A stretch of 20,858 nucleotides of DNA, from the NCBI GenBank assembly GCA_946539625.1, contig CAMNHT010000008.1, positions 1 through 20,858 of the forward strand. The letters run 5' to 3'. The stretch is from an uncultured Clostridia bacterium. GTDB lineage: Bacteria > Bacillota_A > Clostridia > Christensenellales > CAG-138. The translations under genes were made by a program, and so were the position numbers. Below the pieces are notes generated by a model that saw only the letters and a list, made by a program, of their open reading frames with translations, did no database searches and was not told the origin of the DNA. Of the stretch, positions 221 through 17,987 are shown piece after piece. Within the stretch, counting starts at the first letter, position 1, and the number at the start of each line of letters is the position of its first letter.

Positions 221-3200
221 TCAGACGCCCCGGAAATACCGTACTGCCGATTCAAACAAACGGCTGTCGTAACTGCCTGGGACGTTCCGGTACAGGTTTG
301 GGCCGACGCGTTCGGAGTGACCCATCTTGCCGAGAACTCTGCCGTCGGGCGAGGTGATGCCCTCGATAGCGAGAACGGAGCCGTTCGGATTGAAGCGAAG
401 ATCCGAAGTCGGAACGTCGTTCAGATCCACGTACTGTGCGGCGATCTGCCCGTTTTCGATCAGATCTTTGAGGAGCGCGTCTGATGCGATGAACCTGCCC
501 TCACCATGTGAGATGGGGACGCTGACAATCTCCCCGACCTGCAGCCCGGAGAACCAGGGCGACTTGTCGGAAACGATCCGCGTACGCACGATGCGGGACT
601 GATGACGTCCGAGGGTGTTGAACGTGAGAGTCGGACTGTCGGGTGTCGGATCGGTAATCCTTCCGTACGGCACCAGCCCCAGTTTCACCAGTGCCTGAAA
701 ACCGTTGCAGATGCCGAGCATCAGTCCGTCGCGGCGTTCCAAAAGTTCCGTAACGCCTTCCCGGATCGACGCATTGCGGAAAAACGCCGTGATGAACTTG
801 CCGCTGCCGTCCGGTTCATCGCCGCCGGAGAAACCGCCGGGGATGAACACGATCTGCGCCTGTTTCAGCGCGTCCGCAAAGCGATCCACAGAACGGCGGA
901 TACCGTCTGCGGTCAGGTTGTTGATGACCAGGATCTCCGGATCCGCTCCGGCTTCACGAACGGCTCTCGCACTATCGTACTCGCAGTTGGTGCCCGGGAA
1001 AACAGGGATCAAAACCCGCGGGTGCGCGCAGCGAACGACAGGAGCAGCCCGATGCACGGTATGGTAAGAGAGGGCTTCATAGGTCTCTGTCTTTTTATCC
1101 AGACCGGTAGTCCAAACGGATTCCAGACGGCGTTCCCAGCTCAGACACAGGGCGCCCGCATCCTGAGATGTCTGCCCGTACGTGAAGTATGGCTCTTCGG
1201 TGACGGTGCCGATGACTTTCCCATCCGGAACGGCTCCCGTGACTTCCGCAAGGAACGAGCCGTATTGCTTGCGCGTCAGATCGGCGACGGGGATCGTTTC
1301 GTCAAAGCGAAACCCGTAGCCGTTGCCGAACGCCATCTTCAGCACGCCTTCTATCATGCCGCCGGAGCCGACAGCCCAACAGGATGTAACGATTCCTGCG
1401 CGCTGCAGCTCCGTGATCCGCGCAAAGAGCGCAAGCAGGGATGCTGCCTTCGGCAGACCTTTTTCGTCCCGTTCCGGTGTGAAAAGAGCCACCGGGTGAC
1501 CCGGCGCTTTGAATTCGGGAGAAACAATATGCGCCGCCTTGTCGGTCGTGACCGCAAAGCTGACGAGTGTAGGCGGCACGTCAAGTTTTTCAAAGGTCCC
1601 GGACATGGAGTCCTTGCCGCCGATCGCGCCGATCCCCAGATCCATCTGCGCACGGAATGCGCCGAGCAGCGCGCAAAGAGGCTGTCCCCAGCGCTTCGGA
1701 TCGCGGCCGGGCTTGCAAAAGTATTCCTGAAAACTCAGATAGACGTCCTCGAACTTCGCGCCTGCGGCGACCAGTTTGGAGACGGAATCCACCACAGCAA
1801 GATACGCGGCATGATATGGACTGCGCTCGGAAAGATACGGATCGAAACCGTATGCCATCAGAGAACAATCGTCGGTGTGTCCCTGTTCCACAGCGATCTT
1901 GTGGACCATTGCCTGAATGGGCGTCAGCTGATGCTTGCCGCCGAACGGCATGAGCACGGTCCCCGCGCCGATGGTGGAATCGAAACGTTCGGAAAGCCCG
2001 CGGTGAGAGCAGAGGTTCAGATTCTCCGCGACCCGTTCACAGGCAGCTTTGAAACTTGTTTCCGGGACCGCGTCTTCCTTTTGCGGTGCGGCGGCTTCAA
2101 TGCTGATATGCTTTTCCGCGCCGTTGGAGTTCAAAAAGTCGCGGCTGAGGTCCACGATACGCCTTCCGTTCCAGTTCATGACCAGACGCGGCTCCTCGGT
2201 GACGACCGCCACCGGGCACGCCTGCAGATTTTCCTGCGTGGCTAAAGTCAGAAAGTGCTCGGTGTCTTCGGGTGCGACCACAACCGCCATACGTTCCTGC
2301 GACTCGGAGATCGCAAGCTCAGTACCGTCCAGGCCTTCATACTTGCGAGGGACGGCATTCAGGTCGATTCGGACGCCGTCCGCCAGTTCGCCGATCGCGA
2401 CGCTGACGCCACCCGCGCCGAAATCATTGCAGCGCTTGATCAGCCTTGCCGCTTCCGGATCGCGGAACAGTCGCTGAAGCTTGCGTTCCTCCGGCGCGTT
2501 GCCCTTCTGCACCTCGGCACCGCAGACCTCAACGGAACGCGCGGTATGCGCCTTGGAGGAACCGGTGGCGCCTCCGATACCGTCCCTGCCGGTGCTGCCG
2601 CCCAGGAGAATCACGACGTCGCCCGGAGCGGGACGCTCCCGCCGCACGTTTGCCTGCGGCGCGGCGGCGATGACTGCGCCGATCTCCATACGTTTGGCGG
2701 CGTAGCCCGGGTGATAAAGCTCCTCAACAAGCCCGGTCGCCAACCCGATCTGATTGCCGTAGGAGGAGTAGCCAGCAGCTGCCGTGGTGACAAGCTTGCG
2801 TTGCGGAAGCTTGCCGGGAATGGTCTCGGAAACCGGCGCAGTGGGATCCGCCGCGCCGGTGACGCGCATAGCCCCGTAAACGTATGCCCTGCCTGAAAGC
2901 GGATCGCGGATCGCGCCGCCGATGCAGGTGGCGGCTCCGCCGAACGGTTCGATCTCGGTCGGATGGTTATGTGTCTCGTTTTTGAACAGAAGCAGCCAAG
3001 GCTCCGGTTTGCCGTCCACCTCCACCGTGATTTTCACGGTGCAGGCGTTGATCTCTTCGGATTCATCCAGCTTGTCCAGCTTGCCGCGCCGCTTGAGGTC
3101 GCGGACGGCTATGGTCGCAAGGTCCATCAGACAAGGCGGCTTGGTGCGGCCGAGATCTCTGCGCAGCGCAAGATAATCCTCGTAGGTTTGCTGCAGTTCC

Positions 3201-3919
3201 GGATCCGTAAAGCTCGCCCGGTCGATGATCGTATGGAAGGTGGTATGACGGCAGTGATCGGACCAGTAGGTGTCGATCATGCGAAGCTCGGTGATTGTGG
3301 GGTCGCGGTCTTCGCCGCAGAAGTATTCCTGACAAAAAGCAATGTCCGCTTCGTCCATGGCAAGCCCGTAGTCCCGGATCATGTCCGACATCTCCGCTTC
3401 ATTCAGCGTTCGGAATCCTTCCAGGGTACGGACGGAAGTCGGGATCTCATACGGGATCTTTAACGTATCGGGCAGTTCCTCAGCAGCCTCGCGCGCCTCC
3501 ACGGGATTGATGACATACTTTTTAATATGCGAAAGTTCCTCTTTGTCGAATACGCCGTAGAGGGCATAGACCTTTGCCGAACGAATCATGGGACGCTCGG
3601 ACCTGAACAGGATCTGAATGCACTGCGCGGCGGAGTCCGCCCGCTGATCGAACTGGCCCGGCAGGTGTTCCACGGCGAATACAGCGTCAGCGTCGGAAAG
3701 ATCGGGATTCATGACGGCAATGTCCACCTGCGGTTCGGAGAAAACCGTCGGAACAGCGGCTTCGAACTGCTCCCGGCTGATCGATTCGACGTCGTAACGG
3801 TTCAAGATGCGGACCCTTTTTAGCCCGGTGATCCCGAGGAACGAATTCATTTCGCGGCACAGCGCCTCTGCCTCATGGGCAAAGCCGGGCTTCTTTTCGA
3901 CAAAAATGCGATAGACCAT
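221..3919 (-). CDS. purL: Phosphoribosylformylglycinamidine synthase, long fused form
   Basis: Converts FGAR plus glutamine and ATP to FGAM, step 4 of IMP synthesis, in the cytoplasm. The 1232-residue product is the single-chain form: a PurS-like N-terminal region, two AIR-synthase-like halves (the first carries the WSDHCRHTTF motif), and a C-terminal class I glutamine amidotransferase. The glutaminase triad appears intact: Cys1071 in GICNGFQ, with His1201 and Glu1203 in GHSERV. The length fits the clostridial/Bacteroides type (about 1230-1260) rather than the split PurS/PurQ/PurL set of Bacillus. The start at 3919 is chosen because AGGAGG lies just upstream and it abuts the purD stop; the reading frame stays open for 21 more codons, but that stretch lies inside purD. 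This is the last gene of the operon. Confidence 0.97.
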   Translation of the reverse strand: MVYRIFVEKKPGFAHEAEALCREMNSFLGITGLKRVRILNRYDVESISREQFEAAVPTVFSEPQVDIAVMNPDLSDADAVFAVEHLPGQFDQRADSAAQCIQILFRSERPMIRSAKVYALYGVFDKEELSHIKKYVINPVEAREAAEELPDTLKIPYEIPTSVRTLEGFRTLNEAEMSDMIRDYGLAMDEADIAFCQEYFCGEDRDPTITELRMIDTYWSDHCRHTTFHTIIDRASFTDPELQQTYEDYLALRRDLGRTKPPCLMDLATIAVRDLKRRGKLDKLDESEEINACTVKITVEVDGKPEPWLLLFKNETHNHPTEIEPFGGAATCIGGAIRDPLSGRAYVYGAMRVTGAADPTAPVSETIPGKLPQRKLVTTAAAGYSSYGNQIGLATGLVEELYHPGYAAKRMEIGAVIAAAPQANVRRERPAPGDVVILLGGSTGRDGIGGATGSSKAHTARSVEVCGAEVQKGNAPEERKLQRLFRDPEAARLIKRCNDFGAGGVSVAIGELADGVRIDLNAVPRKYEGLDGTELAISESQERMAVVVAPEDTEHFLTLATQENLQACPVAVVTEEPRLVMNWNGRRIVDLSRDFLNSNGAEKHISIEAAAPQKEDAVPETSFKAACERVAENLNLCSHRGLSERFDSTIGAGTVLMPFGGKHQLTPIQAMVHKIAVEQGHTDDCSLMAYGFDPYLSERSPYHAAYLAVVDSVSKLVAAGAKFEDVYLSFQEYFCKPGRDPKRWGQPLCALLGAFRAQMDLGIGAIGGKDSMSGTFEKLDVPPTLVSFAVTTDKAAHIVSPEFKAPGHPVALFTPERDEKGLPKAASLLALFARITELQRAGIVTSCWAVGSGGMIEGVLKMAFGNGYGFRFDETIPVADLTRKQYGSFLAEVTGAVPDGKVIGTVTEEPYFTYGQTSQDAGALCLSWERRLESVWTTGLDKKTETYEALSYHTVHRAAPVVRCAHPRVLIPVFPGTNCEYDSARAVREAGADPEILVINNLTADGIRRSVDRFADALKQAQIVFIPGGFSGGDEPDGSGKFITAFFRNASIREGVTELLERRDGLMLGICNGFQALVKLGLVPYGRITDPTPDSPTLTFNTLGRHQSRIVRTRIVSDKSPWFSGLQVGEIVSVPISHGEGRFIASDALLKDLIENGQIAAQYVDLNDVPTSDLRFNPNGSVLAIEGITSPDGRVLGKMGHSERVGPNLYRNVPGSYDSRLFESAVRYFRGV

Positions 3920-3920
3920 C

Positions 3921-5189
3921 TCAGTCCTCCTGTTCGGCCAGGGCACGTTTTCCGATGTCCCGACGATAGTAGACGTTTTCAAAGCGGATCTGTTCCGCTG
4001 CGGCGTAGGCTTTGTTCAAAGCCTCCTTCAATGACGACGCTTTGCCGGTGACGCCGAGCACACGGCCGCCGGAAGTGACGAGCCTGCCGTCCTGTTCCTT
4101 CGCGCCAGCCACGAATACTTCGGCGTCGAGGTCGTTCGGAATGCTGATGGGATACCCTTTTTCGTAAGATTCCGGATAGCCCTTCGACGCAAGGATCACG
4201 CAGGCGGCCGCGCCGTTGTCGAATTCCACGGGACACTCAGCAAGCTTTCCCTCCGTCACCGCCCGCATGACAGTGAAGAGGTCGGTCTTCAGAAGCGGCA
4301 GAACCACCTGCGTCTCCGGATCTCCGAAGCGGCAGTTGTATTCAATGACCTTCGGACCGTCTTTGGTCAGCATCAATCCGAAGTACAGACAGCCCTTGAA
4401 CGGTCTGCCCTCGCTTGCCATGGCGCGGATCGTAGGCAGAAAGATCTCCCGCATGCAGCGTTCCGCGATCTTTGCGGTATAGCATGGATTCGGTGCGACC
4501 GTTCCCATGCCGCCGGTGTTCAGGCCTGTGTCGCCTTCCCCCGCCCGCTTATGATCCATCGAAGAAACCATGGGAACAAGTGTCTTCCCGTCGGTAAAGC
4601 AAAGGACGGAGACCTCCGGTCCCTCCAGAAACTCCTCGATGACGATACGCTCGCCGCTCTTGCCGAAGCGTCTTTCCTTCATCATGGCACGGACGGCTTG
4701 TTCGGCTTCTTCCCGCGTCTGTGCGATAATCACACCCTTGCCGAGTGCGAGCCCATCGGCCTTGATCACGATTGGGAGATTCGCGTTCTCAAGATATCGA
4801 AGCGCATCGTCTGCATTGTCAAAACTCTCATAACGCGCCGTGGGAATCCCGTAACGCTGCATCAATTCTTTTGAAAACACCTTGGACGCTTCGATGATCG
4901 CGGCGTTCTTGTTCGGGCCGAAGCACGGCACGCCGGCAGCTTCCAGAAGATCCACTGCGCCGAGCGCCAGCGGGTCGTCCGGCGTCACCACTGCGTAGTC
5001 GATGTCCTTCTCCTTTGCAAAGCGCACGATGCCTTCCAGATCCGTCGCGGCGACCGGAACGCAGACCGCATCCTTTGCGATACCGCCGTTGCCGGGAAGA
5101 CAGTAAAGCGCGGTGATCTCCTTATTTTCTTTCAATTTTTTGACGATGGCGTGCTCACGTCCACCACCGCCGATGACCATGACTTTCAT
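3921..5189 (-). CDS. purD: Phosphoribosylamine-glycine ligase (GAR synthetase)
   Basis: Joins phosphoribosylamine and glycine with ATP to give GAR, step 2 of IMP synthesis. The 422-residue length is normal for the family. Visible motifs are the N-terminal GGGGREHA (residues 7-14), the ATP-grasp lysine segment KADGLALGKG (143-152) and NTGGMG (224-229) followed by the PNP segment. The usual PEAPL-like motif reads TPDDPL here (69-74), a variant that I believe is common in clostridial PurD. The start has GAGGAG upstream. It sits 10 nt after the AICAR transformylase gene and 1 nt before purL, so it is probably translated together with both. Confidence 0.97.
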   Translation of the reverse strand: MKVMVIGGGGREHAIVKKLKENKEITALYCLPGNGGIAKDAVCVPVAATDLEGIVRFAKEKDIDYAVVTPDDPLALGAVDLLEAAGVPCFGPNKNAAIIEASKVFSKELMQRYGIPTARYESFDNADDALRYLENANLPIVIKADGLALGKGVIIAQTREEAEQAVRAMMKERRFGKSGERIVIEEFLEGPEVSVLCFTDGKTLVPMVSSMDHKRAGEGDTGLNTGGMGTVAPNPCYTAKIAERCMREIFLPTIRAMASEGRPFKGCLYFGLMLTKDGPKVIEYNCRFGDPETQVVLPLLKTDLFTVMRAVTEGKLAECPVEFDNGAAACVILASKGYPESYEKGYPISIPNDLDAEVFVAGAKEQDGRLVTSGGRVLGVTGKASSLKEALNKAYAAAEQIRFENVYYRRDIGKRALAEQED

Positions 5190-5199
5190 AGCGTTCTCC

Positions 5200-6384
5200 T
5201 CAATGATGGAACAGCCGCAGGCCTGTAAAGCACATCACCATGTCATGTTTATCGCAGCATTCGATGACCGCATCGTCGCGGATGGAACCGCCGGGCTGCG
5301 CGACGTACTTCACGCCGCTCAAATACGCACGTTCGATGTTGTCCGAGAACGGGAAGAACGCGTCGGAGCCGAGCGCGACGTTTTGTACACGGTTCAGATA
5401 CGCCCGTTGTTCCTCCGCGGTAAAGGGCTCGGGCCGATGCGTGAAAAAGCGCTGCCATACGCCCTCTGCGCAGACGTCCTCTTCGTTCTGATTGATATAG
5501 CCGTCGATGATGTTGTCACGGTCCGGTCGCGCCGTCTTCGGCAGGAACGGCAGATTCAGAACTTTATCCGCCTGACGCAAGAACCAGGTGTCCGCCTTGG
5601 ATCCCGCGAGCCGTGTGCAGTGAATGCGGGACTGCTGCCCCGCGCCAACGCCGATCGCCTGCCCGTCCACAGCATAGCAGACGGAGTTGGACTGCGTATA
5701 CTTCAGTGTGATCATGGATACGATCAGATCGCGGACGGCGCTTTCGGGCAAATCCTTATTTGCTGTGACGATGTTCTGCAGCAGTGAACGGTCGATTATG
5801 CATTCGTTCCGTCCCTGTTCAAAGCTCACGCCGAAGACCTGCTTCTGCTCTCGCGGCGCGGGGGCATATGCGGGATCGATCCGAACTATGTTATAGCCGC
5901 CCTTGCGCTTAGCTTTCAGAATCTCCAGCGCTTCGGGCGTGTAGCCCGGCGCAATTACGCCGTCGGAGACCTCGCGTTTGATCAGCGAAGCAGTCAGCGC
6001 GTCGCATTCGTCGGAGAGCGCCACCCAGTCCCCGAAGGAACAGAGCCGGTCTGCGCCGCGTGCTCTTGCGTAAGCGCAAGCCAGCGGATTCCCTTCCAGT
6101 TCAGAGATGTCGTTCACAAAGCAGGCTTTTTTGAGCCGCTCCGGCAGTGGCGTGCCGACCGCTGCAGAGGTCGGACTCACATGCTTGAAGGAAGCCGCGG
6201 CGGGCAGTCCCAAAGCCTGCTTCAGTTCTCTGACGAGCTGCCAGGAGTTAAGTGCGTCCAGAAAATTGATATAGCCGGGGCGACCGTTCAGAATCTCAAC
6301 CGGAAGCTCGCTCCCGTCTTCCATAAAAATACGAGCCGGTTTCTGGTTCGGGTTGCAGCCGTATTTCAATTCAAATTCCTTCAT
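5200..6384 (-). CDS. purH: Stand-alone AICAR formyltransferase (C-terminal half of PurH)
   Basis: Transfers a formyl group from 10-formyl-THF to AICAR, giving FAICAR, step 9 of IMP synthesis. At 394 residues it corresponds only to the AICARFT domain; the N-terminal IMP cyclohydrolase (MGS-like) domain of ordinary PurH (about 510-590 residues) is missing. The catalytic Lys67-His68 pair is visible in SFKHVSPTSAAVG. Further family signatures are SVCYAVDGQAIGVGAGQQSR and the very C-terminal LRLFHH. Recalled from memory, the sequence is closer to the eukaryotic ATIC transformylase domain than to E. coli PurH. The start at 6384 has AAGGAG upstream. The missing cyclohydrolase is supplied by the PurO-like gene 9 nt upstream in the transcript. 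Confidence 0.94.
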   Translation of the reverse strand: MKEFELKYGCNPNQKPARIFMEDGSELPVEILNGRPGYINFLDALNSWQLVRELKQALGLPAAASFKHVSPTSAAVGTPLPERLKKACFVNDISELEGNPLACAYARARGADRLCSFGDWVALSDECDALTASLIKREVSDGVIAPGYTPEALEILKAKRKGGYNIVRIDPAYAPAPREQKQVFGVSFEQGRNECIIDRSLLQNIVTANKDLPESAVRDLIVSMITLKYTQSNSVCYAVDGQAIGVGAGQQSRIHCTRLAGSKADTWFLRQADKVLNLPFLPKTARPDRDNIIDGYINQNEEDVCAEGVWQRFFTHRPEPFTAEEQRAYLNRVQNVALGSDAFFPFSDNIERAYLSGVKYVAQPGGSIRDDAVIECCDKHDMVMCFTGLRLFHH

Positions 6385-6393
6385 ATTCGCTCC

Positions 6394-7113
6394 TTATCTG
6401 TTTCGGTTGATCAGTCGTTCCTCATACGCTCCCGTCTCCGGTTCGATGAATCGGACGTAGAGGGAGATCCGGTTGTCCGCGTCCAGGCTCTCCCACAATG
6501 CTTCGGTAAAGGCATCGATATCGCTGCCGATCCTCACACGCTCCGGTTCGCCCTGAAAGGTCGGAAGCGGATTCCCGTCGTGCATGTAGGTATGGATAAA
6601 ATGACCGAGACCGGGTTTTGCCGGATAGGAAAAGGCAAAGCGGGCGCAGTCGCTGCCGGATTCATCGATGCTCTTGAGAATACTCATCTCGTATCGTGGC
6701 TTCGCGGGGTCCAGTCTGAAAAGTCCGCTGATCCGCGGCGTAAAATTAGGCGCATCCGGCTCGAAGCAGCGGGATTCGAGCGATTCGAAAAAGCTCTTTC
6801 CCGCCCTCAATCCATCATAAACGGTATCGGTCTGATCGCCGTTGGTCACGATCAGCAGGTTTTGATACTGACGCAGGGCGGCGTAGATGATCAGACTAGG
6901 ATCCTCCACCTTTGAAGCGTCGAACGGTTCCGTAAAGACTTCTCCGTCATGCACCGTGAAGACGCGGTTTCTGGAGTTTACGCTGCGTCCCATAATGAAA
7001 TAAGCGGCGACGGCGCGCGTTCCGTCCGCCGTGCGTCCCAGCACAATGCCTCTGCCCGGATAGGCGTTTCCTCGGACAAGCCCCGAAATCTCTGGCGTTT
7101 GATAAATGTTCAT
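6394..7113 (-). CDS. purO: Archaeal-type IMP cyclohydrolase
   Basis: Predicted to close FAICAR to IMP, the last step of de novo purine synthesis. The 239-residue product is unrelated to the PurH N-terminal domain. It matches the PurO family in its N-terminal NAYPGRG (16-22), the NGDQTD segment (91-96) and TPRI (125-128), each with a counterpart in methanogen PurO as I recall it. It is some 35 residues longer than archaeal PurO, mainly in the C-terminal half. The ribosome binding site AAAAGGAG precedes the ATG. Its place between purN and the transformylase-only purH makes the role very likely. Assignment rests on motif recall plus context. Confidence 0.88.
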   Translation of the reverse strand: MNIYQTPEISGLVRGNAYPGRGIVLGRTADGTRAVAAYFIMGRSVNSRNRVFTVHDGEVFTEPFDASKVEDPSLIIYAALRQYQNLLIVTNGDQTDTVYDGLRAGKSFFESLESRCFEPDAPNFTPRISGLFRLDPAKPRYEMSILKSIDESGSDCARFAFSYPAKPGLGHFIHTYMHDGNPLPTFQGEPERVRIGSDIDAFTEALWESLDADNRISLYVRFIEPETGAYEERLINRNR

Positions 7114-7132: not shown

Positions 7133-7753
7133 TTATGACGGATCTGCAAGCATGTCGGCCGCGACTGTTTCGACCGCTTTCGGCAGAAGAATCCACTCCG
7201 CCTGCTCCATGACGCGTCGCTGCAGCACTTCCGGCGTGTCGCCCGGAAGAACCTCCACCGCTTTTTGCAGCAGGATCTCTCCCCCGTCCGGAATCTCGTT
7301 GACGAAATGAACCGTGGCACCGGTGACTTTGACACCGCGGGCAAGCGCCGCCTCATGGACGTGCAGTCCGTAATAGTCCTTTCCGCAGAAGGATGGGATC
7401 AGCGCCGGATGGATATTGAGAATGCGGTGATCCCAGCGGCGTGTGAACGCCGGAGAAAGAATGGTCAGAAAGCCCGCGAGAACGATCAGCTCGATCTTGT
7501 GAAGTTCCAGGACACGCTGTAGTTCCTGCTCGAATGCTTCCCTGCCGCCCAGTGCCTTTGCGGAGATCGCAATCGCGGGGATGCCCGCCGCTTTCGCCCG
7601 CTCCAGCGCGTAGGCATTCTTTCGGTTGGAAACCACAAGCGCGATCTCCGCATGATGAATAACCTCGCCGCGCGCTTCCAAAATCGCCTGCAGATTTGTT
7701 CCTCCGCCGGATACCAGCACTGCGGTGCGGATCTTGCCGCGTTCATTCAGCAT
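7133..7753 (-). CDS. purN: Phosphoribosylglycinamide formyltransferase (GART 1)
   Basis: Formylates GAR with 10-formyl-THF to give FGAR, step 3 of IMP synthesis. It has 206 residues, typical for PurN. The N-terminal VSGGGTNLQAI (14-24) is the phosphate-binding loop. The catalytic residues correspond to Asn113 and His115 in LNIHPALIPSF and Asp156 in EIPDGG. The start codon overlaps the end of purM by 7 nt (ATGCTGA), which implies translational coupling. Nothing looks degenerate. Confidence 0.96.
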   Translation of the reverse strand: MLNERGKIRTAVLVSGGGTNLQAILEARGEVIHHAEIALVVSNRKNAYALERAKAAGIPAIAISAKALGGREAFEQELQRVLELHKIELIVLAGFLTILSPAFTRRWDHRILNIHPALIPSFCGKDYYGLHVHEAALARGVKVTGATVHFVNEIPDGGEILLQKAVEVLPGDTPEVLQRRVMEQAEWILLPKAVETVAADMLADPS

Positions 7754-8790
7754 AGTTCGATCCTCTGTTCGCCGCGCACGATCTCGCCCAGAATGTAAGC
7801 GTCTTCTCCCTGTTCATGCAGGATATTCAGAGCCGTATCGGCATCCTTTGCCGCGACGGTCAGACACATGCCGACGCCCATATTGAACGTGTTGAACATA
7901 TCCCGGCGGGAAATGCCGCCCGTCCGTTCGATCAGTTTAAAAATCGGCAGAACGCGCACGTCCTTCTCACGGATCCGCGCACAGAGTCCCTCGGGGATCA
8001 TGCGCGGAATATTCTCGTAAAAACCGCCGCCGGTGATGTGGGACACGCCCTTGACGCAGACCTGTTCCATCACGGCAAGCACGGGCTTGACATAGATGCG
8101 GGTGGGCGTGAGCAGTGTCTCGCCGAGACTTTTTCCGCCCAACGCCTCCATGGGGGTTTGCAAGTCGGCGTGCTCCACGTCGAATACCTTGCGGACCAGA
8201 GAGAATCCGTTGGAGTGAACGCCGGAGGACGGGAGCGCGATGACAACATCGCCCGGCTCCGTCTCCGCGTTGTTCAGAATGCGTTCCCTGTCCACCACGC
8301 CGGTGGAATAGCCGGCAAGATCGTACTCGTCCGCCGGGTAAAAGCCGGGCATTTCGGCAGTTTCTCCGCCGATGAGGGCGCAGCCCGCCTGAACGCAGCC
8401 GTCGCACACACCCTTGACGATCTGCTCGATGCGTTCCGGAACGTTTTTTCCGCAGGCGATGTAGTCCAGAAAGAACAGCGGTTTTGCGCCGCAGCAGATG
8501 ATGTCGTTGACGCACATCGCGACGCAGTCGATCCCAACGGTGTCATGCCTGTCCATCAGGAACGCAAGCTTCAGCTTAGTGCCGACACCGTCGGTTCCGG
8601 AAACCAGGACCGGACGGCGGATGCCGGTCAGATCGAGCTCAAACAGTCCCCCAAAGCCGCCTACGTCTGAGCAGACTCCGGGGGTCATCGTTTTGGCAAT
8701 ATGCCGTTTCATCAGCTCCACGGCACGGTATCCGGCGGTGATATCCACGCCCGCCGCCGCGTACGCTTCGGATTTGGAAAACTCGTTCAT
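7747..8790 (-). CDS. purM: Phosphoribosylformylglycinamidine cyclo-ligase (AIR synthetase)
   Basis: ATP-dependent closure of FGAM to AIR, step 5 of IMP synthesis. It has 347 residues, the normal length. The N-terminal half carries the signature GTDGVGTKLKLAF (65-77), and the C-terminal half has HITGGGFYENIPRM, as expected for the PurM/PurL ATP-binding superfamily. The gene starts 3 nt after the purF stop, with AAGGAA upstream, and overlaps purN. It is an ordinary family member. Confidence 0.97.
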   Translation of the reverse strand: MNEFSKSEAYAAAGVDITAGYRAVELMKRHIAKTMTPGVCSDVGGFGGLFELDLTGIRRPVLVSGTDGVGTKLKLAFLMDRHDTVGIDCVAMCVNDIICCGAKPLFFLDYIACGKNVPERIEQIVKGVCDGCVQAGCALIGGETAEMPGFYPADEYDLAGYSTGVVDRERILNNAETEPGDVVIALPSSGVHSNGFSLVRKVFDVEHADLQTPMEALGGKSLGETLLTPTRIYVKPVLAVMEQVCVKGVSHITGGGFYENIPRMIPEGLCARIREKDVRVLPIFKLIERTGGISRRDMFNTFNMGVGMCLTVAAKDADTALNILHEQGEDAYILGEIVRGEQRIELC

Positions 8791-8793
8791 GTT

Positions 8794-10218
8794 CTATTCC
8801 TTTCCGTTCCAGCAATAGGTACAAAGCTCACATTCCGGCAGACCGATGGCCTCGATCACATTCTCCACGGATTGAAACTCCAGTGAGGCGAAATGGAACC
8901 GTTCACAGATATTCGCTCGCAGCTTCCTGCCCCGTTCCGTCGAACCGTCGGCATACTCATCAAGATGTTCGAAGCCCGCTTCTCCTTCCAGTTCCAGAAT
9001 CACCCGGCGCGCAATGAGCTCCATATCCGAGGTCGCCCGGGTGAAGTTCAGATACTTGCAGCCGAACATGATCGGCGGACAGGCGGAACGCATGTGAACG
9101 GACTTGGCGCCGTTTTCATAGAGGAATTCCACCGTTTCCTTGAGCTGGGTGCCGCGAACGATGGAATCGTCCACGAAAAGCAAATTCTTATCCCGGATCA
9201 GCTCCGTCACAGGGATCTGCTTCATTTTTGCGATTGTATTGCGGTCCACCTGCGCGGGCGGCATAAAGCTCCTCGCCCATGTCGGCGTATACTTAATGAA
9301 TGCGCGGGCAAAGTGTTTGCCGCTCTCGTTGGCGTAGCCAATGGCGTGCGGCGTGCCTGAATCCGGAACGCCGCCCACATAGTCGATCTCCTGCACATCT
9401 TCTCTGTTCCGATCCGAACGTGCGAGAATCGCGCCGTTACGGTAACGCATGGACTCCACGTTGACTCCCTCGTACGTGGAAGTCGGATAGCCGTAGTAGG
9501 ACCACAGGAAAGAACAGATGCGTTTCTCCCTGTCGGGTGCGCGCAGCTGCGTCATGCGCTCCGGCGTCAGTTCGACGATCTCGCCGGGACCGAGCTCCTT
9601 TTCAAAGACGAAGCCAAGCTTTTCATATGCGAAAGACTCGAAAGAGACCGCATAACCGTCGTCACGTCTGCCCACGGTGACGGGGATTCGCCCGATCCGG
9701 TCTCTTGCAACGATAAGAGAACCGTCCTGTCGCAGGGTTAGAATGGAAGCCGTACCTTCGACTGACGCCTGCGCAAAGCGGATGCCCTCCGCAAAGTCAG
9801 CCTTTTGGTCAATCAACGCGGCCAGCAACTCGACATCGTTGACCCTGCCGCCGGTTTTGGCGTCAAAGTGTACGCCTGAGCCGGACAGATATTGATCGAT
9901 CAGCGCTTCCGCGTTGTTGATGCGTCCGATCGCGCAGATGGCATATGCGCCGTGATGAGAGCGGATCAACAAAGGCTGCGGCTCGCTGTCGCTGATGCAT
10001 CCGATGGCCGCGCATCCGCACATTTCTTCGAAGATATGTTCGAAGCGCGTACGGAAAGGCGCGTTCTCTATGCTGTGTATTTTTCGCTGCAGACCGATCT
10101 CCGGATCATACGCCGCCAGCCCGCCTCGGCGGGTGCCGAGATGGGAATGGTAGTCGGTGCCGAAGAAAACATCGGCCAGACAGTCCTGTTTCGATGTGAT
10201 GCCGAAAAATCCTCCCAT
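8794..10218 (-). CDS. purF: Amidophosphoribosyltransferase homologue lacking the N-terminal nucleophile cysteine
   Basis: By position this is step 1 of purine synthesis (PRPP to phosphoribosylamine). It has 474 residues. The C-terminal phosphoribosyltransferase half is recognisable, with the PRPP loop VDDSIVRGTQ at 349-358. The N-terminal half has a class II amidotransferase layout (HLGTRRGG at 26-33, then SDSEPQPLL), but it begins MGGFFG where canonical PurF has MCGIVG, so the catalytic cysteine is replaced by Gly2. The canonical VRYST segment reads CISDS and HNGNLTN reads AIGRINN, so the glutamine-binding Arg and oxyanion Asn also seem lost. Cys463, Cys466 and Cys469 near the C-terminus could belong to an iron-sulfur site. 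The start at 10218 has AGGAG; the frame stays open for 22 more codons into the purC-purF gap without a good binding site. I recall similar MGG-starting proteins annotated as PurF in Bacteroides and clostridia. Confidence 0.9.
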   Translation of the reverse strand: MGGFFGITSKQDCLADVFFGTDYHSHLGTRRGGLAAYDPEIGLQRKIHSIENAPFRTRFEHIFEEMCGCAAIGCISDSEPQPLLIRSHHGAYAICAIGRINNAEALIDQYLSGSGVHFDAKTGGRVNDVELLAALIDQKADFAEGIRFAQASVEGTASILTLRQDGSLIVARDRIGRIPVTVGRRDDGYAVSFESFAYEKLGFVFEKELGPGEIVELTPERMTQLRAPDREKRICSFLWSYYGYPTSTYEGVNVESMRYRNGAILARSDRNREDVQEIDYVGGVPDSGTPHAIGYANESGKHFARAFIKYTPTWARSFMPPAQVDRNTIAKMKQIPVTELIRDKNLLFVDDSIVRGTQLKETVEFLYENGAKSVHMRSACPPIMFGCKYLNFTRATSDMELIARRVILELEGEAGFEHLDEYADGSTERGRKLRANICERFHFASLEFQSVENVIEAIGLPECELCTYCWNGKE

Positions 10219-10295
10219 GTAAGAAACTCCTGAAATTGTATTCTTGCCACGCGTCCGCAGAGTCTCTGTGCCGCGCAGGATCAAAGATGCGCTTT
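10219..10295 (-). other. 77-nt gap between purC and purF
   Basis: This is the widest spacing in the operon; all other junctions are 36 nt or less. In the minus-strand RNA it contains a short dyad CAGAGACTCTG and then the purF ribosome binding site (AGGAG). No convincing -35/-10 pair and no T-run terminator are seen. It may be a processing or translation-control site, or simply a spacer. Confidence 0.3.
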
Positions 10296-10982
10296 TTACG
10301 CAAAGAAGAGTTCGGAAAGCGTCATCGGATCAATGTACTTGCCGTCCTTGTACACGCGCATATTGCCCGAAGCGATCTCATCGATCAACATAACCTTTCC
10401 GTCGGCATCGTATCCGAACTCGAACTTGATGTCATAGAGGACCATGCCGCGCTTCGCCATTTCGTCCGCGACAATCTGCGTGATCTTCTGCGTCATCGCT
10501 TTGATCTCGTCGTACTGCTCTCCGGTCATGACGCCAAGTACCACAAGACCGTCCCTGGTGACCAAGGGATCGCCTTTCGCGTCGTTTTTGAAAGTGGTTT
10601 CCACATACGCGGGCAAATCTGCGCCTTCCTCGATATATTCACTGTAACGCCGCAGGAAGCTTCCAACCGCCTTATGACGGCAAATGACCTCGAGCCCCTT
10701 GCCGAACACCTTGGCGGGCAGAACCTCCATGGTGGTGTTTTTGAGGTCTGCGGACACATAATGCGTGCGAATGCCGGCGGCGTTGACCTTCTCGAAGAAG
10801 TAGACGGACATGCGCAGGTTCACGTCGCCCACGCCGTCGATCGTCAAACCGACGCTGTTCTCGCCGGGATCGAAAACACCGTCCTTGCCGGTGCAGTCAT
10901 CCTTGAATTTCAAAAGATAGTTACCGTTTTCGAGCGCATAGACATTCTTGGTCTTTCCGGTGTATACAAGCTTGTTTTCCAT
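10296..10982 (-). CDS. purC: SAICAR synthetase, divergent clostridial-type
   Basis: Condenses CAIR with aspartate using ATP to give SAICAR, step 7 of IMP synthesis. It has 228 residues, slightly shorter than E. coli PurC. The family's start motif is present as YTGKTKNVY (7-15), and the late core as DIKFEFG (184-190). The motif that usually reads DEFSPDGSR is instead [11 protein letters not shown] (201-211), and the C-terminus ends soon after. I regard this as a known divergent PurC branch rather than damage, because the ATP-grasp-like core is continuous. The start at 10982 has AGAGG upstream. It lies between purE and purF. Confidence 0.93.
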
Positions 10983-11018: not shown

Positions 11019-11516
11019 TTAAGACTGTTCGAGTTCTTTCGTCAACTGCGCGTCCTGCGCAAGGATCGCAGAAGCGGCGGCTTCGCGTCTCTCCGTCAGG
11101 AGGCGGGACAATTCCGCGTTCTCAACGGACAGGATCTCCGCTGCCAGCAGGGCTGCGTTGACGCCGCCGTTTACCGCCACAGTCGCCACGGGAACGCCGG
11201 AAGGCATCTGGACCGTGGATAAAAGCGCGTCCATACCGTCGAATACCGGTCCCTTGCAGGGCACGCCGATGACCGGAAGTGTGGTGTTGGCTGCAACAGC
11301 GCCTGCGAGATGAGCCGCCATTCCTGCAAAAGCGATGATCGCGCCAAAGCCGTTTTCACGGGCGCAGCGGGCAAATTCCGCGGTTTCGACCGGGGTCCTG
11401 TGCGCGGAATAGATATGGGTCTCAAACGGAATCTCCAGTTCCTTCAGCACGTCGATCGCCTTCTGAACCACCGGAAGATCGCTTTTGCTGCCCATCACAA
11501 TGCCGATTTTTTTCAT
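11019..11516 (-). CDS. purE: AIR carboxylase / N5-CAIR mutase catalytic subunit
   Basis: Makes CAIR, step 6 of IMP synthesis. It has 165 residues. Visible are GSKSD (9-13), the catalytic histidine segment SAHRTP (His39, 37-42) and AGMAAHLAG (64-72), then a C-terminal [10 protein letters not shown] helix. The SAHRTP and AAHL motifs fit class I PurE, which normally works on N5-CAIR made by PurK. No purK is present in this window, so either purK lies elsewhere or the enzyme uses AIR plus CO2 directly. It is the first purine gene of the operon, 24 nt after pyrI, with GAGGAAA before the ATG. Confidence 0.96.
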
Positions 11517-17360: not shown

Positions 17361-17987
17361 ATGAGCCTTTCTGAACTGTCCGTACATTCTTTCTTTGAAC
17401 TGCTTGGATCTGACGCAGCTGCCCCCGGCGGCGGCGCCGCCGCGGCTTTGGCGGGTTCCCTTGGATCCTCCCTTGCCGAAATGGTCTTTGCCCTGACTTC
17501 CTTTCGAAAGCAGTACGCACAATTCCAGGAAGAGACGGAAGCCGGTATGGAGCATTGCGCTGCTCTCCGCACGGCTTTCCTCACCGCGATGGAACGCGAC
17601 GCCGAGGTCTTCCACGGCTTCTCTGCCGCACTGAAGCTTCCCAAGCAGACCGACAGGGAAAAAGACATCCGTTCCATTGCGATACAGGATGCGCTGAACG
17701 CCTGTATTGAATCTCCCCTGCACATGATGGAGCTCTCTTATGAAGCAATCAGTCTGGTCCTGAACATGCCCGGCAAAACCAATTTTAACGCAGCAAGCGA
17801 TCTCGGTGTGGCGGCGCTGATGCTCGGCGCTGCCGTTCAAAGTGCCTGGCTGAATGTTCGGATCAATCTTTCCATGCTGAAGGACAGAGAGAAAGCCGCG
17901 GCTTACCGTGCCCAGGGAGAAGATCTGCTCAAGCGTACGCTGGACATTTCCAACGCGGTCTACGAGCAAATACTCAGCGAACTCTGA
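17361..17987 (+). CDS. fchA: Cyclodeaminase/cyclohydrolase family protein (methenyl-THF cyclohydrolase)
   Basis: Predicted to interconvert 5,10-methenyl-THF and 10-formyl-THF, or to act as a formimino-THF cyclodeaminase; the family (FTCD C-terminal domain, FchA) does either. The product is 208 residues, all-helical, with the N-terminal signature APGGGAAAALAGSLGSSL (21-38) then MVFALT (41-46). No formiminotransferase domain is attached. AAGGAG lies 8 nt before the ATG. It is divergent from the pyr-pur operon, whose PurN and AICARFT consume 10-formyl-THF, which favours a role in one-carbon supply over histidine breakdown; no hut genes are seen nearby. There is no clear terminator of its own. 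Confidence 0.85.
   Translation: MSLSELSVHSFFELLGSDAAAPGGGAAAALAGSLGSSLAEMVFALTSFRKQYAQFQEETEAGMEHCAALRTAFLTAMERDAEVFHGFSAALKLPKQTDREKDIRSIAIQDALNACIESPLHMMELSYEAISLVLNMPGKTNFNAASDLGVAALMLGAAVQSAWLNVRINLSMLKDREKAAAYRAQGEDLLKRTLDISNAVYEQILSEL

Follow-up and report, generated by a model that had tools for sequence, protein, structure and literature searches.

Introduction

Textbooks present the first step of de novo purine synthesis as glutamine-dependent. The closest described relative of the protein considered here is the canonical PurF of the Bacillus subtilis type, an enzyme with an iron-sulphur (Fe-S) cluster (1gph, 1ao0; TIGR01134). The window, i.e., the whole stretch of 20,858 nucleotides analysed from an uncultured Clostridia bacterium (contig CAMNHT010000008.1, assembly GCA_946539625.1), encodes on the minus strand (8794..10218) a PurF-type protein without the nucleophile Cys1, named PurFx here. 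PurFx resembles canonical PurF in its two domains, its loop binding phosphoribosyl pyrophosphate (PRPP), four Cys positions and its place in the operon. It differs by the lack of Cys1, of the glutamine loop and of the oxyanion Asn, by a remodelled flexible loop and by an identity of 28-32%. According to the sequence comparisons, PurFx is probably the first purine enzyme here, making 5-phosphoribosylamine (PRA) from PRPP and free ammonia with an N-terminal domain that is no longer a glutaminase. We strongly infer the formation of PRA, and we infer free ammonia as the donor.

In an archaeal review (PMC3261824), Escherichia coli PurF without Cys1 is described as unable to use glutamine, the use of ammonia persisting. 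PRPP amidotransferases accept ambient NH3, with a possible entry from the glutamine site, and simulations point to an arginine-gated front channel (PMC12017579, partial text). The clearest parallel is NAD synthetase, one family that comprises a glutamine-dependent and an ammonia-dependent type; ammonia is given as the physiological donor of the single-domain enzyme (PMC3376133, partial text). The ammonia-type NAD synthetase has no glutaminase domain, whereas PurFx retains one that is apparently dead but conserved. Beta-lactam and carbapenam synthetases have lost Cys1; they have another synthase domain and another chemistry, without PRPP. Their N-terminal nucleophile (Ntn) domain is related to glutamine amidotransferases, and two of them (1jgt, 1q15) are among the fold matches of PurFx.

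PurFx is a variant within the known PurF superfamily, usually annotated as an ordinary amidophosphoribosyltransferase. Public records of its relatives usually bear that name, one being a hypothetical protein. All 56 members of a diverse PurFx alignment match TIGR01134 at E 0.001 or better; the window protein, whose best solved relative is B. subtilis PurF, obtains 169.4 bits, i.e., under half of the 350-bit cut-off. In the open-licence literature (titles and abstract openings, most subscription papers being outside this scope), no PurF family without a glutaminase site was described.

Loss of the glutaminase site

The open reading frame (ORF) begins at the ATG at 10218 and encodes 474 residues with the N-terminus MGGFFGITSKQDC (MGGFFG). 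This start is backed by AGGAG at 10227..10231 (minus strand, as all positions below), read from the sequence as the likely ribosome-binding site, and by the start positions in relatives. An upstream start giving a Cys-first protein had been named beforehand by the first-pass annotation as one of the findings that would speak against it. This candidate is rejected: the in-frame extension to the TTG at 10284 adds 22 residues, none of which is Cys.

Residue counts refer to 45 PurFx members (window plus 44 genomes) aligned with 52 canonical PurFs, E. coli PurF being added later. The truncated PurFx copy of one genome (G308) was left out. There were 53 canonical-type sequences at the outset; one of them (L114) has no CG motif, proved to be another Cys-less PurF and was dropped.

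Cys1 is missing in 45/45 PurFx. Residue 2 is Gly in 43 and Ser in 2 of them; in the window the Gly2 codon lies at 10213..10215. In VIA-align, the first pair opposes Gly2 of the model to chain residue 1 of the B. subtilis (1ao0, 1gph) and E. coli (1ecb) enzymes. The ORF, the alignment and this structure comparison confirm that MGGFFG replaces MCGIVG and that the next Cys is residue 13, as first noticed. Residue 13 is Cys in only 34/45 members (Ala in 10, Val in 1); Cys13 is thus not an obligatory nucleophile and was rejected as a replacement.

The glutamine-binding Arg and the oxyanion Asn had also been said to be replaced, and the alignment bears this out: canonical R26 is Leu, the RYxTxG glutamine loop is deleted and Asn102 is Val, Ile or Thr, each in 45/45. 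In the window the missing loop leaves the junction Ile75-Ser76 (9991..9996). Canonical Asp127 is retained in only 4/45 members, including the window (Asp128). Residues 22-28 (10135..10155) read DYHSHLG in 45/45 of the set, in place of the canonical LQHRG. Two Bacteroidales copies read DYNSHLG, which weakens the idea that the conserved His pair binds a metal or ammonium. The glutamine amidotransferase domain of Pfam is still recognised in the window PurFx.

Retained PRPP, iron-sulphur and gate residues

The two-domain PurF fold (Ntn plus type I phosphoribosyltransferase) extends over the full length of PurFx. The PRPP loop VDDSIVRGTQ is intact, in agreement with the first description: D351, S352, V354, R355, G356 and T357 are found in 45/45 members, D350 and I353 in 44/45 (DDSIVRGT, residues 350-357, 9148..9171). 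Cys235 (9514..9516), Cys387 (9058..9060) and the pair Cys466-x-x-Cys469 (8812..8823) are present in 45/45. They align with Cys236, Cys382, Cys437 and Cys440 of the B. subtilis type, which we take to be the Fe-S ligands; PurFx is thus predicted to keep them.

The PRPP flexible loop, KYTPTWARSF (residues 309-318, 9265..9294), is remodelled with one inserted residue and keeps its Arg. The gate residues Arg333, Tyr259 and His26 of E. coli PurF correspond in the alignment to R316, Y241 and H26, each in 45/45. The position of E. coli Phe260 is occupied by Tyr (39/45) or Phe (6/45).

Selection and phylogeny

A sequencing error is excluded, because the 90% cluster of the window PurFx (P0002) contains 13 member sequences on 17 contigs and the same operon of another genome (G001) contains a copy of 99% identity. 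The ratio of non-synonymous to synonymous substitution rates (dN/dS), computed with three relatives, takes values of 0.07, 0.08 and 0.14, dS being about 1.5-1.7, i.e., near saturation, in two of the comparisons. PurFx is under purifying selection, and a pseudogene is rejected by these low values together with the conservation across the alignment.

In a tree of 108 sequences, the 56 PurFx and the 52 canonical PurFs lie on the two sides of one branch, with a value of 100 in the Shimodaira-Hasegawa-like approximate likelihood ratio test (SH-aLRT). It must be noted that this is a quick maximum-likelihood tree with SH-aLRT support and no bootstrap. Two candidate sets (at least 8,000 and 7,996 sequences) were scored; their weak end may consist of canonical PurFs, so that they give no measure of family size.

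PurFx as the only PurF found

With P0001, the scores over 147 genomes of the class fall into two separate bands: 45 genomes reach 335-1083 bits, and none of the other matches listed exceeds 165 bits. PurFx is thus carried by 45/147 genomes. At E 1e-20, 28 of these carriers have one or more further PurF matches and 17 have none. These 17 PurFx-only genomes represent 11 families, and 14 of them are at least 90% complete. No match above the TIGR01134 cut-off was found in the 16 PurFx-only genomes that were rechecked, nor in G001, Criibacterium bergeronii, Levyella massiliensis, Evtepia gabavorous and one Intestinimonas metagenome-assembled genome (MAG). PurFx genomes without such a match number 21 in total, the four named records included. 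A canonical copy is carried by Flavonifractor An112 and an Agathobaculum MAG (2/22 rechecked).

The following enzymes of the pathway are kept: purD is present in 45/45 carriers and purM in 44/45, both being present in all 17 PurFx-only genomes. The genome without purM (G432) has, besides PurFx, a Cys-type PurF and a Cys-less PurF of another kind. PurL-type matches occur in 20/20 PurFx-only genomes, none above the cut-off of that model. PurFx is therefore the sole PurF-type gene found alongside purD, purM and a PurL-type gene in 17/45 carriers. A glutamine shortage as the cause is unsupported, since a glutamine synthetase domain is present in 20/20 PurFx-only genomes.

PurFx lies in the pur operon in four of the 17 genomes (G001, G313, G342, G365). 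Another 11, with PurFx elsewhere, were inspected at the purE-purM slot, G349 and G346 being outside the operon inspection. In 10 of the 11, purE and purM are both visible and lie side by side, without any purF match separating them; the slot of the eleventh (G338) could not be judged. The usual place of canonical purF is therefore vacant in these 10 genomes, and no candidate other than PurFx was found.

Genomic neighbourhood and spread

A search of species genomes gave at least 596 stretches, of which 595 were confirmed as PurFx loci. Among the nearest 80 of them, PurFx belongs to a pur cluster in 78 and directly precedes purM in 71. Canonical purF is in tandem with it in 8/80, in both orders. 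For a conserved neighbour of the stand-alone copies, 44 loci were screened within 7 kb; once pur and pyr genes and antisense frames are set aside, none recurs in more than 5 of them.

Relatives starting with MGG had been suspected in other anaerobes; this is borne out and was understated. Phylum-wide, 28/398 genomes carry the family at E 1e-60. Among the named records are Peptoclostridium acidaminophilum, at 52% identity, and, at 46-47%, Bacteroides, Parabacteroides and Phocaeicola. No relative was found on viral contigs with the query P0112.

In P. acidaminophilum, Bacteroides finegoldii and Parabacteroides distasonis (L247, L248, L249), pepT directly follows PurFx, and gcvT comes next in the two Bacteroidales. 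Neither pepT nor gcvT was matched in the window or in 125 further loci. The neighbourhood in the three species may tie PurFx to the breakdown of peptides and glycine, processes that release ammonia.

Proposed function and alternatives

PurFx, which retains the two-domain PurF fold and the Fe-S cysteines, is proposed to convert PRPP into PRA in its phosphoribosyltransferase domain, the N-terminal domain having presumably lost glutamine hydrolysis. The nitrogen would come from free cytoplasmic ammonia, in an anaerobe of ammonia-rich habitats. Entry may occur by the emptied glutamine pocket or by the arginine-gated front channel, because the loop that would cover the pocket is lost and the gate residues are matched. 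The loss of the glutaminase site, the retention of the residues for PRPP and Fe-S, the position within the purine operon and the genomes in which no other PurF was found together indicate that PurFx is probably the PRA synthase of purine synthesis. The first-pass annotation had left the choice between ammonia, a separate donor, another nucleophile and another reaction. Of the four, free ammonia seems to fit best, the other three being less likely.

Several observations weigh against this function: (i) 28/45 carriers have a further PurF match, and PurFx may do something else there; (ii) in the stretches fetched, a pur gene stands beside PurFx in only 13/45 aligned loci, and in none of the 27 with less than 59% identity to the window; (iii) 2/80 nearest loci (L153, L177) have no pur neighbour; (iv) pepT follows PurFx in the three species named above; (v) G001 is 84% complete, and 3/17 PurFx-only genomes are less than 90% complete; (vi) glutamine synthetase is present in the PurFx-only genomes, its sole match being weaker, in a frame of about 640-800 residues, in nine of them.

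The main alternative, which appears unlikely, is that PurFx acts as the synthase component of a complex that depends on glutamine, its ammonia being supplied by a separate glutaminase or by a canonical PurF in a mixed oligomer. The tandem arrangements at 8/80 near loci are in its favour, as are the two-subunit forms of NAD synthetase (PMC3376133, partial text). However, the 21 genomes without a match above the purF cut-off argue against it. Within the window, the stretch between purE and purLQ consists entirely of genes for purine enzymes, with no partner gene visible among them (unlinked partners in the rest of the genome were not searched for), so that a separate glutaminase becomes less likely.

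It is rather improbable that PurFx is a PRPP-sensing regulator or catalyses another phosphoribosyl transfer, PRA being made by another route in the PurFx-only genomes. The 32/45 aligned loci without a pur gene in the stretch fetched and the pepT neighbours would fit such a role. For Salmonella purF strains, exceptions to the purine requirement are also reported in some growth conditions (PMC3485032, partial text). Against it stand the position directly before purM in 71/80 near loci, the empty purE-purM slot in 10 genomes with PurFx elsewhere, and the 17 genomes that keep purD and purM with PurFx as the only PurF type found. Another reaction is unlikely because these genomes keep the pathway without another PurF being found.

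That PurFx still hydrolyses glutamine by another nucleophile is hardly credible: Asp128 of the window corresponds to canonical Asp127 and DY(H/N)SHLG is strongly conserved, but residue 2 is Gly or Ser, Cys13 and Asp127 are not general in the family and the entire glutamine loop is lost.

A wider reading of PurFx as the ammonia-using enzyme is offered tentatively. PurFx might be a large, unrecognised PurF class that abandoned glutamine and repeatedly displaced canonical PurF in Clostridia. The old pocket, with DY[HN]SHLG, might then be an ammonium entry or sensing site, and purine synthesis would be ammonium-gated.

Other Cys-less PurFs

A second, separate lineage of Cys-less PurF is found in 4/4 genomes of genus g255 (L114 and L241 in G432, L224 in G347, L226 in G411, L227 in G369). 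These copies have MSG(I/V)FG, carry RGG where the RYxT loop would be and lack the HNG motif; they keep HRGQ and score 435-451 bits, i.e., above the TIGR01134 cut-off. A Cys-type PurF is also present in 4/4 genomes; in G432 it is the Cys-less copy of this type that occupies the pur operon, the Cys-type copy lying on a different contig. The nucleophile was lost separately in g255 and in PurFx.

The g255 copy and Mlab_0150 of Methanocorpusculum labreanum (PMC3261824) both have Ser for the nucleophile and are, like PurFx, Cys-less PurF copies. In the archaeal review, one copy with Ser for Cys is suspected not to be a PurF. The PurFx family is far larger than this single copy, and PurFx can be the sole PurF found. 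A further PurF copy (L229, in G329) starts with MSGIFG, keeps RYSTS and has no HNG motif; it is another possible nucleophile loss.

Purine operon of the window

Profile matches confirm the otherwise intact purine operon noticed around the Cys-less PurF. The gene order is purE (11019..11516), a divergent purC (10296..10982; 119.7 bits for a cut-off of 189.9, Pfam SAICAR_synt), PurFx, purM (7747..8790), purN (7133..7753), a PurO-like inosine monophosphate (IMP) cyclohydrolase (6394..7113), a stand-alone formyltransferase of 5-aminoimidazole-4-carboxamide ribonucleotide (AICAR; 5200..6384, PRK07106), purD (3921..5189), whose product is the next enzyme and consumes PRA, and a fused purL-purQ (221..3919). 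The start of purL-purQ was set at an in-frame ATG; the domain search, on 221-3946, shows a glutaminase domain of its own (GATase_5). The PurO-like protein obtains 53 bits for the NCBIfam cut-off of 150 and 196 bits with Pfam IMP_cyclohyd. The two genes at 5200-7113 would replace the bifunctional PurH for IMP formation.

The purC of the window is short (228 residues). In 31/80 related loci purE is the next pur match upstream of PurFx, and tblastn found no purC match between the two in these loci. The pur genes are preceded by a putative pyr cluster, named from its ORFs. Beyond it, on the opposite strand, lies a formiminotransferase-cyclodeaminase (17361-17987; FTCD_C, a folate enzyme family). 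The Rfam scan of the window gave 0 families at the gathering score.

Significance

The PurFx family exemplifies how an Ntn glutaminase domain can remain under selection in nature after the loss of catalysis. Cultured strains that carry PurFx exist, so its function is open to testing in them. If many gut anaerobes run the PRA step on ammonia, annotation and metabolic models misjudge their nitrogen demand, and the predicted sensitivity to glutamine analogues (6-diazo-5-oxo-L-norleucine (DON), azaserine) would be wrong for such anaerobes.
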